DNA of 64,000 nucleotides from Bacteroidota bacterium (GTDB lineage Bacteria; Bacteroidota; Bacteroidia; JABDFU01): positions 1 to 64,000 of the forward strand of contig JACPDY010000014.1 of assembly GCA_016183775.1 (NCBI GenBank), read 5' to 3'. A program made the translations under genes and the position numbers. Numbering within the stretch: the stretch's first letter is position 1; each line of letters starts with the position of its first letter. Below the pieces are notes generated by a model. That model searched no databases. It saw only the letters and a list, made by a program, of their open reading frames with translations, and was not told the DNA's origin. Positions 20,187 through 61,786 of the stretch are shown here, in pieces.

Positions 20187-20229
20187 AGTTAGCAGTTGGC
20201 AATGATCAATCTTTTGCCAACTGCCAACT
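20187..20229. repeat. Heptad-periodic inverted repeat, nuoA-nuoB gap
   Basis: Arms AGTTAGCAGTTGGCAA (20187-20202) and TTGCCAACTGCCAACT (20214-20229) pair at 15 of 16 positions. GTT recurs after 7 nt within the left arm. Confidence 0.85.
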
Positions 20230-21319: not shown

Positions 21320-21385
21320 GTTCCGGGTTCCGGGTTCAAAGTTCCAGGTTGTCCACAATCTAACTTTGAACCCGGAACCCGGAAC
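21320..21385. repeat. Heptad-periodic inverted repeat, nuoC-nuoD gap
   Basis: 24-bp perfect arms (21320-21343 and 21362-21385) with an 18-nt loop. The left arm is built on the unit GTTCCGG, with GTT at arm positions 1, 8, 15 and 22. The element begins 5 bp after nuoC and ends 9 bp before nuoD. Confidence 0.92.
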
Positions 21386-22678: not shown

Positions 22679-23218
22679 ATGGCTACTAAACAAATAAAAT
22701 TTTCTGATGATGCGTATGAATTAGTACAGCGCATCATAAAGCGTTACCCGGAAGGGAAGCAGAAATCAGCTATACTTCCTGTACTGCATATTGCGCAAGC
22801 GGAGTTTGATGGCTGGCTAAGTGCGCCCGTGATGGATTACGTAGCGTCTATTTTAAGTATTCAGCCCATTGAAGTATACGAAGTGGCTTCATTTTACAGC
22901 ATGTTCAATTTAAAACCTGTTGGAAAATGTCTGATCGAAGTTTGTCGTACCGGACCATGTTGGTTAATGGGGGCCGAGGACGTAGTAAAATATATTGAGA
23001 AGAAATTGAATATAAAGGAAGGCGAAACCTCAAAGGACGGAATGTTTACTTTAAAAACAGTTGAATGCCTTGCCGCATGCGGCTCTGCGCCGATGATGCA
23101 GGTTGGGGAGACGTACCATGAGAATTTAACACTTGAAAAAGTCGATTCAATTTTACAGGATTATAAATCGAAAGGCGAATTGGTAACACATTGGGATAAA
23201 AAGCATATAAAAAAGTAG
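22679..23218 (+). CDS. nuoE: NADH-quinone oxidoreductase subunit E
   Basis: 179 residues of the 24-kDa thioredoxin-like subunit. It binds a [2Fe-2S] cluster with ligands in CRTGPCWLMG and ECLAACGSAP. It works with NuoF in the NADH-oxidising tip. The stop codon overlaps the first base of the following inverted repeat. Confidence 0.96.
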   Translation: MATKQIKFSDDAYELVQRIIKRYPEGKQKSAILPVLHIAQAEFDGWLSAPVMDYVASILSIQPIEVYEVASFYSMFNLKPVGKCLIEVCRTGPCWLMGAEDVVKYIEKKLNIKEGETSKDGMFTLKTVECLAACGSAPMMQVGETYHENLTLEKVDSILQDYKSKGELVTHWDKKHIKK

Positions 23219-23270
23219 TTGTTGGTTGTTAGTTGTCGGTTCTTGGAACTAACAACTAACAACCAACAAC
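23218..23270. repeat. Heptad-periodic inverted repeat, nuoE-nuoF gap
   Basis: 19-bp perfect arms (23218-23236 and 23252-23270) with a 15-nt loop. The left arm starts GTTGTTGGTTGTTAG, with GTT at positions 1, 8 and 15 as well as between. It fills the gap from the nuoE stop to 9 bp before nuoF. Confidence 0.9.
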
Positions 23271-23278
23271 TGGCAACT

Positions 23279-24612: not shown

Positions 24613-24665
24613 GGTTTTGGGTTTCAAGTTTCAGGTTGCCAACCTGAAACTTGAAACCCAAAACC
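24613..24665. repeat. Heptad-periodic inverted repeat, nuoF-nuoG gap
   Basis: 26-bp perfect arms (24613-24638 and 24640-24665) around a single C. The left arm has GTT at positions 2, 9, 16 and 23, with units such as GGTTTCA. It begins 2 bp after the nuoF stop. Confidence 0.93.
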
Positions 24666-25693: not shown

Positions 25694-26725
25694 ATGCTTG
25701 CATTTTTAATTTATAAATTAATCCTTGTAATAGCTGTGTTCAGTGTGTCACTGTTGGTTGCTATGTATTCCACATATGCCGAGCGCAAAGTGGCAGCCTT
25801 TTTACAGGATAGACTTGGACCTAATCGCGCCGGTCCGTTCGGGATATTGCAGCCTCTTGCTGATGGTGTGAAGATGTTCATGAAAGAGGAGATAATTCCT
25901 GATGTTTCTAATAAGTGGTTGTTTATTATTGGCCCCTCAATTGCAATGCTCACAGCTTGTATGACCGGTGTAGTTATTCCGTGGGGTGGAACATTAACTA
26001 TTAATGGCACACAGTATCCGATGCAGATCACTGATATCAATATCGGAATACTGTATTTATTGGGCGTTGTTTCAATTGGAGTGTATGGTATCATGATCGG
26101 CGGCTGGGCATCCAATAATAAATATTCTTTGCTTGGTGCTATTCGCGCTTCCTCACAAATGATAAGCTACGAATTGGCAATGGGCTTTGCTATCATAGCC
26201 CTGGTAATGCATACAGGTACATTGAGTTTGCGCGACATTGCCGCCATGCAATCCGGCTGGCATTGGAATATTATTTATCAACCGCTCGGATTTTTGATAT
26301 TTATTATATGTGCTTTTGCTGAGACCAATCGCGCACCTTTCGATTTACCTGAATGTGAAACGGAGTTGGTTGGAGGATATCATACTGAGTATAGTTCAAT
26401 GAAGCTCGGATTTTATTTGTTCGCAGAGTATATTAACATGTTCATATCATCTGCCATAATATCAACTTTATTTTTTGGCGGCTATAATATGCCATTCATT
26501 GGCCGCTTTGTTCATGATCCTAATTTGCTTGCTGTTTTAGGAACAGTGTTTTTATTCGCAAAAATTTTCTTTTTCATATTTTTGTTTATGTGGGTGCGAT
26601 GGACATTGCCGCGCTTCCGCTACGATCAACTAATGAACCTGGGGTGGAAAATATTAATTCCGCTATCCCTTGTAAATATTGCAGTAACTGGAATCGTAAT
26701 GTTTCTGGGAGGAAGGCTTCACTAG
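25694..26725 (+). CDS. nuoH: NADH-quinone oxidoreductase subunit H
   Basis: 343 residues with about eight membrane helices. It has the family motifs AERKVAAFLQDRLGPNR and ETNRAPFDLPECETELVGGYHTEYS in its loops (both split across the quinone cavity). It couples the peripheral arm to the membrane arm. The left arm of a heptad repeat starts on the base after its stop codon. Confidence 0.96.
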   Translation: MLAFLIYKLILVIAVFSVSLLVAMYSTYAERKVAAFLQDRLGPNRAGPFGILQPLADGVKMFMKEEIIPDVSNKWLFIIGPSIAMLTACMTGVVIPWGGTLTINGTQYPMQITDINIGILYLLGVVSIGVYGIMIGGWASNNKYSLLGAIRASSQMISYELAMGFAIIALVMHTGTLSLRDIAAMQSGWHWNIIYQPLGFLIFIICAFAETNRAPFDLPECETELVGGYHTEYSSMKLGFYLFAEYINMFISSAIISTLFFGGYNMPFIGRFVHDPNLLAVLGTVFLFAKIFFFIFLFMWVRWTLPRFRYDQLMNLGWKILIPLSLVNIAVTGIVMFLGGRLH

Positions 26726-27224
26726 AAAGTTGGCAAAGGGCAGTTGGCAGTTCGCAATGATTGTCAAGGCCTGATGTTAATTGTAAAACATTAAAAGGAT
26801 GGGATCTTTTAAAGATTTGACAGTTTATAAAAAGGCATTTTCTTTGTCAATGGATATTTTTAAAGCAAGCAAAAATTTTCCGGACGATGAAAAATATGGG
26901 CTTACGAGTCAAATAAGACGTTCGTCTCGTTCGGTATGTTCTAATATTGGGGAAGGATACAGGAAAAGAATATATAGTGCGCATTTTACCAGCAAAGCAT
27001 CCGATGCTGATATGGAAAATTCAGAAACTCAGGTTTGGTTGGACTTTTCTTTAGCTTGTGAATACATTACAAAGACAACATATGATGAGTTTACGTCAAG
27101 ATCCGAGGAAATAGGAAGATTAATTAATCATATGGTTGAAAATCCTGAAAATTATAAAGGTAAACTCATTAACAAAAATTAAAGTCGGAACTTTGCCAAC
27201 TGCAAATTGCCAGCTGCCAACTTT
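26726..27224. repeat. Split heptad-periodic inverted repeat enclosing the S23 gene
   Basis: The outer arms AAAGTTGGCA (26726-26735) and TGCCAACTTT (27215-27224) are perfect complements. AGTTGGCAAAG (26728-26738) also matches CTTTGCCAACT (27191-27201). The left arm keeps the 7-nt register, with GTT at offsets 4, 18 and 25. Read on the minus strand, the right arm shows GTT-like triplets at 5, 12, 19 and 26. The arms lie immediately inside the nuoH stop and nuoI start, with the S23 gene as the loop. Confidence 0.75.
26799..27182 (+). CDS. S23 / four-helix-bundle protein (23S rRNA intervening-sequence type) within the nuo operon
   Basis: 127 residues starting MGSFKDLTVYKKAFSLSMDI, with QIRRSSRSVCSNIGEGYRKR, the hallmark of the S23 family. 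Relatives are encoded in intervening sequences of 23S rRNA genes, and the fold is shared with Avd of diversity-generating retroelements. The biochemical role is unknown. It is not a complex I subunit. It sits between nuoH and nuoI, which are normally adjacent, with inverted-repeat arms on both sides, so it looks like a passenger of an inserted element. The frame is intact and follows the operon direction. Confidence 0.92.
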   Translation: MGSFKDLTVYKKAFSLSMDIFKASKNFPDDEKYGLTSQIRRSSRSVCSNIGEGYRKRIYSAHFTSKASDADMENSETQVWLDFSLACEYITKTTYDEFTSRSEEIGRLINHMVENPENYKGKLINKN

Positions 27225-27230
27225 TAAAAA

Positions 27231-27833
27231 ATGCTTACAAACAGGTCTGAAATAGTAGTAAAAAAAGAAATGTCGCTTATTGAGCGGTTGTACATCCCTG
27301 CTATTTTAAACGGCATGCGTATAACATTCAGTCACTTCTTTAAAAAGAAAGCCACGATAAATTATCCCGAAGAAAAGCGTCCCTTTAGCGGGGTATACCG
27401 CGGACAGCATGTTTTAAAGCGTGATGATGCAGGAGCTGAGCGTTGTACGGCTTGCGGTTTGTGTGCAGTTGCATGTCCGGCTGAGGCGATTACAATGACG
27501 GCAGCTGAGCGCAAAAAGGGAGAAGAGGCACTATATCGTGAAGAGAAGTATGCGAGTGTATATGAGATCAATATGTTGCGTTGTATATTCTGTGGATTAT
27601 GTGAAGAGGCCTGTCCGAAGGAAGCGATATTCCTGACCGACCGTATTGTTCCTTCAACTTTCACACGAGATGAATTTGTTTATGGAAAAAATATATTGGT
27701 GGAACCTGTTGATAAAGCCAAGCGGATCGATGTAACCAAACGTCAAACCCAGGCGGTATTAGAATTTAAAAAACATCCGGAGTTTGCACATAACAAACTT
27801 TACGATGGGAAACAGTTAAAACAAAAACATTAG
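27231..27833 (+). CDS. nuoI: NADH-quinone oxidoreductase subunit I
   Basis: 200 residues with two [4Fe-4S] ferredoxin motifs: CTACGLCAVACPAEAI and CIFCGLCEEACPKEAI. It passes electrons between NuoG and NuoB. The start could also be the internal MSLIERL, 13 codons later. The gap to nuoJ holds only a degenerate GCCACTGCC-rich remnant of a gap repeat. Confidence 0.95.
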   Translation: MLTNRSEIVVKKEMSLIERLYIPAILNGMRITFSHFFKKKATINYPEEKRPFSGVYRGQHVLKRDDAGAERCTACGLCAVACPAEAITMTAAERKKGEEALYREEKYASVYEINMLRCIFCGLCEEACPKEAIFLTDRIVPSTFTRDEFVYGKNILVEPVDKAKRIDVTKRQTQAVLEFKKHPEFAHNKLYDGKQLKQKH

Positions 27834-27894
27834 GCAATGTATCTGGAGTTGTGGTATACTGCCACTGCCTCCTGCCACTGCCAACTTTAAAGTT

Positions 27895-34899: not shown

Positions 34900-34967
34900 C
34901 AGATAACGAATGGTTACGAATTTACAAATGTTCCGTTATTCGTAAATTCGTAACCATTCGCTATCTG
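34900..34967. repeat. Long inverted repeat after the symporter gene
   Basis: 26-bp arms (34900-34925 and 34942-34967) with one mismatch. The left arm contains AACGAATGGTTACGAATTT. The 7-nt register of the nuo gap repeats is not obvious here. It may act as a terminator without a T-run, or be a different repeat class. Confidence 0.85.
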
Positions 34968-46987: not shown

Positions 46988-47041
46988 GGTTTCAGGTTTC
47001 AGGTTGAGTTTGGTTAAACCGCCAACTTGAAACCTGAAACC
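46988..47041. repeat. Heptad-periodic inverted repeat between rfaE2 and the flippase-like gene
   Basis: 19-bp arms (46988-47006 and 47023-47041) pair with one mismatch. The left arm is GGTTTCAGGTTTCAGGTTG, with GTT at positions 2, 9 and 16. It has the same unit as the nuoF-nuoG and nuoM-nuoN elements, although this region is read on the minus strand. Confidence 0.9.
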
Positions 47042-50686: not shown

Positions 50687-50748
50687 AAAACTCCGACATA
50701 ACCCCTGACAGGGTTTCAAAACCCTGTCAGGGGTTATGTCGGAGTTTT
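50687..50748. repeat. Perfect 30-bp-arm hairpin (CCCTGACAGGGTTT family)
   Basis: Arms 50687-50716 and 50719-50748 are exact complements with a 2-nt loop, flanked by A- and T-runs. The inner CCTGACAGGGTTT wording recurs widely in Bacteroidota intergenic DNA. It can act as a two-way terminator and also looks like a dispersed repeat. Confidence 0.88.
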
Positions 50749-61489: not shown

Positions 61490-61786
61490 AAAATATATAA
61501 TTTAAATATTCCTACTCTCTTTAAGGCTTTTCGGTTTCCGCCATGATCGCTAAACCAATAAAATACCAAATGCAATTATTTTTTTTAATTGGTTTATATT
61601 ATTCAGGTACAGCGAATTGCTTTTGTCAAAAAAAACAAATTCGATTTCATACAATTTGTGTTTTGTAGAATTAAAGCCTCGTTTCGAGTAAAATATTGCT
61701 ATTCAATTATAAAACCCGTCGTATAAATAAAAGAATCCTCCCGGCTTTTTTATTTGTAAGCGTCTTTGTTTTAAAGTATTCAGCTT

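Follow-up and report, generated by a model that had tools for sequence, protein, structure and literature searches.

S23 proteins were first met inside split 23S rRNA genes, and we know of no function assigned to them since that discovery. In the window, as we call the whole 64,000-nucleotide stretch of Bacteroidota DNA analysed here, an S23 gene lies between nuoH and nuoI, enclosed by two repeat arms, and gene-less repeats lie in other gaps of the same operon. The locus raises the question of what an S23 gene does between two protein-coding genes, and whether it and the gene-less repeats belong to one family of elements.

An S23 gene between repeat arms in the nuo operon

The original prediction held that the arms adjoin nuoH and nuoI directly with an intact S23 gene between them, and the coordinates bear this out exactly (Table 1), the nuoH stop ending at 26725 and the nuoI ATG lying at 27231. 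The arms, 32 nt each and separated by 435 nt, are made of imperfect AGTTGGC heptads, and their inverted-repeat (IR) alignment score of 34 exceeds the maximum of 27 reached in 200 shuffles of the flanks. In profile searches, the protein matched PF05635 (E 2.8e-32, 111.6 bits, cut-off 33.8) and TIGR02436 (98.8 bits, cut-off 24); it also has a bAvd match, scores 24.6 bits with the NF033474 Avd model, under the cut-off of 80, and matches the solved structures 2GSC and 2RLD, each containing five chains. NCBIfam confirmed the identities of nuoA to nuoJ. Folding of the whole unit gives a modest gain over shuffles (z –2.4). An Rfam search found no rRNA in the window, and the unit sits outside any 23S rRNA gene; an S23 ORF between complementary ends, by which 23S rRNA intervening sequences (IVSs) are recognised, is found in it all the same. 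Elsewhere in the window, Rfam matches a DUF805b RNA (RF02914, 47.8 bits) at 61509-61544 on the minus strand.

Table 1. Positions of the S23 unit and of gene-less repeats in the window
Feature	Position	Strand	Remarks
Upstream arm, AGTTGGC-type heptads (AAAGTTGGCAAAGGGCAGTTGGCAGTTCGCAA)	26726..26757	+	first base is the next after the nuoH stop
S23 / four-helix-bundle gene, 127 aa	26799..27182	+	PF05635, TIGR02436; codirectional with nuo
Downstream arm, reverse complement of upstream arm (81%)	27193..27224	+	ends 6 nt 5' of the nuoI start
Gene-less hairpin, AGTTGGC type, nuoA-nuoB gap	20187..20229	.	arm pairing, RNA folding
Gene-less hairpin, GTTCCGG/GTTCAAA type, fills nuoC-nuoD gap	21320..21385	.	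arm pairing, period runs, RNA folding
Gene-less hairpin, GTTGTTA type (type of S23 locus L005), nuoE-nuoF gap	23217..23271	.	arm pairing, RNA folding
Gene-less hairpin, GTTTCAA type (type of S23 locus L001), nuoF-nuoG gap	24613..24665	.	arm pairing, RNA folding
One-sided repeat remnant (CTGCCACTGCC), unpaired, nuoI-nuoJ gap	27854..27883	.	RNA folding z –1.3
Gene-less hairpin, GTTTCAGG type, outside nuo operon	46988..47041	.	

Heptad periodicity marks the window as a whole, with seven runs of period 7 at a score of at least 11 against 0-2 for every other period from 4 to 12. The expectation that other nuo gaps carry the arms without the gene held in part: hairpins are present in four gaps, folding as RNA to between –24 and –51 kcal/mol (z –4.3 to –10.8), but their repeats differ (AGTTGGC-, GTTCCGG-, GTTGTTA- and GTTTCAA-like) and the repeat between nuoI and nuoJ is unpaired. 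Two further strong hairpins, at 34900-34967 and 50687-50748, are without heptad periodicity.

The source genome (G000; 4.54 Mb in 164 contigs) contains nine S23 genes, all of them framed by inverted repeat arms when inspected by eye, each with its own repeat unit, the IR score being marginal for some loci, including L004 and L006. In two genomes, the gene-less hairpins share their repeat types with S23 genes of the genome they lie in. When G000 and a second S23-rich genome (G089) were compared, 16 of the 18 periodic hairpins were closer to the S23 arms of their own genome than to those of the other, with one tie, the G000 set including the L004 arms added by hand. The GTTCCGG hairpins of G000 and an AGCAATC hairpin of G089 lack a good S23 match. 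All hairpin counts derive from sampled stretches of genome.

Distribution of S23 units and their residence at two gaps

S23 genes were present in 47 of the 60 genomes drawn as relatives and in 116 of 148 sampled Bacteroidota genomes, at least one in each. They are flanked by inverted repeats generally, as had been anticipated: an IR score of at least 28 was reached at 93 of 141 S23 loci (66%) and by 14 of 333 control ORFs from the same loci (4%), and inverted or tandem repeats stood on at least one side of 132/141 S23 genes against 100/333 controls, leaving only 9/141 S23 loci with neither. Because over half of these 141 loci are closely related to the window S23, they are not independent; the 80 named loci were collected with the window S23 as single query and thus comprise close relatives only. 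The best flank period was 7 or 14 at 114/141 S23 loci and 100/333 control ORFs, and since control flanks, too, have 7 as their most frequent best period (78/333), the IR comparison and period 7 were used jointly. The repeat unit is mostly 7 nt, sometimes 8 or 9 nt, and the median arm length is 30 nt. S23 genes tend to be codirectional with their neighbours (96/124 vs 155/260, p 6e-4), which points to a role at the RNA level.

On cyanobacterial plasmids, 7-, 8- or 9-nt arms accompany S23 at most loci examined. At five of these plasmid loci (L366, L368, L369, L371 and L372) S23 adjoins annotated integrase or tyrosine recombinase genes, and at L372 it lies between annotated cas6 and cas4. S23 matches also occur within open frames of 492 and 471 aa (G012:C51:8487-8807 and G056:C43:22553-22876), which may be fusions or in-frame insertions. 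Phages as carriers of S23 units are not favoured, since 50,697 phage records contained no S23, and a PADLOC search returned no link to defence.

At nuoH-nuoI itself, the S23 gene is not fixed: most relatives with a recognisable nuoI have a short gap and no unit, which supplies the unoccupied junctions that the original prediction had called for. With this result and the rarity of S23 loci devoid of repeats, neither of the outcomes named in advance as refuting the idea has come about. Two genomes of the same genus differ here: a gene-less hairpin with another motif is present in one, and the other has no clear hairpin. Eight nuoH-nuoI S23 entries were available, two of which (G024 and L120) are identical in both S23 and NuoI; apart from that pair, S23 identities of 0.75-0.92 are similar to those of NuoI, and the two run loosely parallel (rho 0.35, p 0.07, over eight entries with G024 = L120). 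This S23 is about as conserved as NuoI, suggesting an old resident lineage at nuoH-nuoI that is absent from most relatives.

A gap between PRiA4_ORF3-like and NA37 genes, compared across 121 species of genus g54, provides a second history (70 loci examined, chosen by match pattern and hence non-random). Many species have one S23 subfamily with octad arms here, four have an S23 of another subfamily with GTTTAAA-like arms, and others show gene-less hairpins, one-sided remnants or nothing but a spacer, of 24 nt in G286 and of 29 nt in G251. These S23-losing remnants at one orthologous gap agree with the proposal that gene-less forms derive from S23 units. Six loci (L263, L264, L265, L266, L273 and L277) hold an unrelated hairpin element with CCTCTCCCC...GGAGAGGG-like ends. 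One resident S23 lineage in this gap is under purifying selection, with a median dN/dS of 0.13 over 27 intact genes (three more copies gave no full ORF start). The two arms of a locus complement each other better (34) than do arms taken from different species (24), the largest permutation mean being 29.8. The S23 genes at nuoH-nuoI and in the g54 gap behave as residents, not as active movers.

Repeat motif and S23 subfamily

The assumption of a single heptad family did not survive. The repeat differs among the S23 genes of one genome and is specific to the S23 subfamily (AGTNGGC, GTTTNAA or GTTATTAA), so that several S23-repeat pairs exist in parallel within a genome, and this pairing is well supported. 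Window-type S23 genes keep AGTNGGC in 54 different gaps and in several phyla, occurring with it also in Ignavibacteria, Chlorobi, Calditrichota, Cloacimonadota and Planctomycetes, and two further subfamilies keep GTTTNAA and GTTATTAA across genera. Among pairs from different gaps only, arm similarity tracks S23 protein similarity (rho 0.50; largest of 500 permutations 0.14) and rises from about 8 to 14 beyond 50% S23 identity. Divergent S23 genes that share one gap have unrelated arms (similarity 7.1). Using different gaps only, with shared-flank pairs excluded as far as the flanking ORFs permitted, the arms alone assigned 97 of 109 loci to the correct subfamily. For S23 genes that do not belong to the window's subfamily, arm similarity almost vanishes when protein identity is under 50% (rho 0.12, at the permutation 95% limit), and the pairing is thus visible only within subfamilies.

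The association also extends to whole genomes, where it is looser. A two-unit AGTNGGC motif was found in 14 of 25 genomes with a window-type S23 (called at E≤1e-30) and in 30 of 223 others (p 5e-6 over 248 genomes, kinship ignored), and was absent from 11 of the 25. G148 has 274 hits of AGTNGGCAGTNGGCA, an AGTNGGC repeat, yet lacks a window-type S23 at E≤1e-30 and is absent from the genomes with an S23 match in the survey of 148 Bacteroidota; G333 (111 hits) and G173 (53 hits) likewise have the motif without a window-type S23. Such repeat-rich genomes without the matching S23 indicate that the coupling is not strict.

One element family, its relatives and its rivals

The suspected link to 23S rRNA IVSs was strengthened by a plasmid locus of Azospirillum lipoferum that matches LSU rRNA and contains an S23-like frame between heptad arms, the same anatomy on both sides. 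The Coxiella IVS is described as having three tandem GACAGAT heptamers just upstream of the S23 ORF and complementary ends, with RNase III cleavage in the stem and excision (PMC4990558); these heptamers fit the anatomy of the family. The IVSs of Coxiella, Leptospira and Brucella resemble our units in placing an S23 ORF in the loop between complementary ends. In contrast to them, units of the nuoH-nuoI type occupy many gaps between protein-coding genes, have gene-less counterparts and carry a motif that varies with the S23 subfamily, and the Coxiella S23 appears unexpressed and decaying, unlike the lineage under purifying selection described above. We read the classical 23S IVS as one landing site of the S23 element family.

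Other known systems resemble these units in part. REPIN/RAYT systems also combine many short hairpin elements with a protein gene that has the same motif on its flanks; however, the nuoH-nuoI unit encodes S23 and not a Y1 (TnpA_REP) transposase, S23 genes occur in genomes without Y1 transposase, the arms of S23 units consist of 7-9 nt repeats in tandem, and one genome contains several types of motif side by side. Intergenic heptamer arrays have been published for Xanthomonas and Nostoc (GGGAATC, GGGGA(C/T)T; 70 inverted pairs among 186 in X. campestris; PMC4692102) and for Beggiatoaceae together with five Bacteroidetes (TAACTGA; PMC4679880), and in their available portions these texts draw no connection to S23. 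S23 is homologous to the accessory protein Avd of DGRs (PMC10053308), from which it differs in that S23-bearing genomes need no reverse transcriptase. As far as the open-access literature could be seen, none of its papers connects S23 with intergenic heptad arms or with gene-less hairpins. As a separate observation, G157 has 19 reverse-transcriptase matches, many with identical scores.

That these units form one element family, in which a long inverted repeat encloses the S23 gene in its loop, is well supported. The original idea stands in its family anatomy, its empty sites and the matching hairpins of the same genome, but not in one common heptad; an autonomous form, with S23 moving the unit, would have to be squared with the old resident lineage at nuoH-nuoI and with G148. 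The recurring layout, with a motif that changes alongside the protein, suggests that S23 reads its own repeat. In this family an arm holds roughly four or five motif copies in tandem, mostly of 7 nt and in some cases of 8 or 9 nt, and S23 subfamilies are paired each with a motif of their own, that of the window with AGTNGGC. In the model that we propose, a pentameric S23 ring could bind the single-stranded RNA or DNA of the arms, with approximately one motif per subunit, and such recognition would keep protein and repeat matched. The pentamer is suggested by the solved relatives 2GSC and 2RLD, and the X. campestris S23, of solved structure, is a pentamer (PMC4990558). A spacing of 7-9 nt mismatches the duplex turn and, with a median arm of 30 nt, would suit a ring whose subunits each read one repeat of a single strand. 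Once transcribed, the arms may form a stem trimmable by RNase III, which would let the unit be tolerated between the genes of an operon or within a helix of 23S rRNA. Gene-less hairpins would be relics or passengers, recognised by an S23 encoded elsewhere in the genome, and S23 itself might help the unit to spread, the most speculative part of the model. Direct binding of S23 to the arms, and self-mobilisation of the unit, we infer. As a whole, a widespread element family with subfamily-specific motif pairing and a pentameric S23 recognising its own arms is, in our judgement, rather probable. A bolder reading, which we hold to be somewhat less likely than not, is that the rings recognise repeats of 7-9 nt, about one for each subunit, and that this specificity co-evolves with the arms. 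S23 would then be the only protein of a hairpin-bounded mobile element that has no transposase, occurs in several phyla and uses the 23S IVS as one landing site.

Much of the same evidence could be read as a host regulatory system, in which a resident RNA-binding S23 regulates the transcript it is encoded on by way of the hairpin, with the matching gene-less hairpins of other operons as further targets. Purifying selection (dN/dS 0.13), conservation of the position-stable nuoH-nuoI S23 genes about equal to that of NuoI, long residence in one gap over about 30 species, matching hairpins in trans and codirectionality would all be expected of a regulator. However, even closely related species differ in where hairpins stand and in their motifs, one genus alone showing three states at nuoH-nuoI; in one genus a single gap houses two different S23 subfamilies; and arms are found inside 23S rRNA too. 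We regard this explanation as unlikely.

Alternatively, the hairpins could arise and spread by another process, S23 genes merely settling in their loops, a view that draws on gene-less hairpins seeming to outnumber S23 genes in the sampled stretches, on G148 as a repeat-rich genome without S23, and on the location of 23S IVSs in rRNA helices (PMC4990558). The tie between motif and S23 subfamily over 54 gaps and several phyla, and the absence of a hairpin from most orthologous nuoH-nuoI gaps, make it quite improbable. Movement by another known enzyme, either TnpA_REP (Y1) as in REPIN/RAYT or a reverse transcriptase with an Avd-like S23, seems very improbable: the Avd homology noted above, the bAvd match and the eight Y1_Tnp and one RVT_1 matches of G000 speak for it, but G085 (a single contig with nine S23 genes) has no RVT_1 and no Y1_Tnp (PF01797) match, the S23-bearing G178 and G094 have no RVT_1, and G013, with 12 S23 genes, has no Y1_Tnp (PF01797). 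Neither enzyme is therefore needed for S23 genes to persist, which weakens dependence on REPIN/RAYT or reverse transcriptase.

We thus favour an element family whose S23 proteins would recognise their own arms. The pairing of S23 subfamily and motif makes the binding target of S23, a long-standing mystery, directly and cheaply testable. It also joins three lines that have been separate in the literature as far as it was available, namely the 23S rRNA IVSs, the heptameric intergenic repeats and the large 'four helix bundle' protein family. Should S23 promote the spread of its unit as well, these units would be mobile elements without a transposase.
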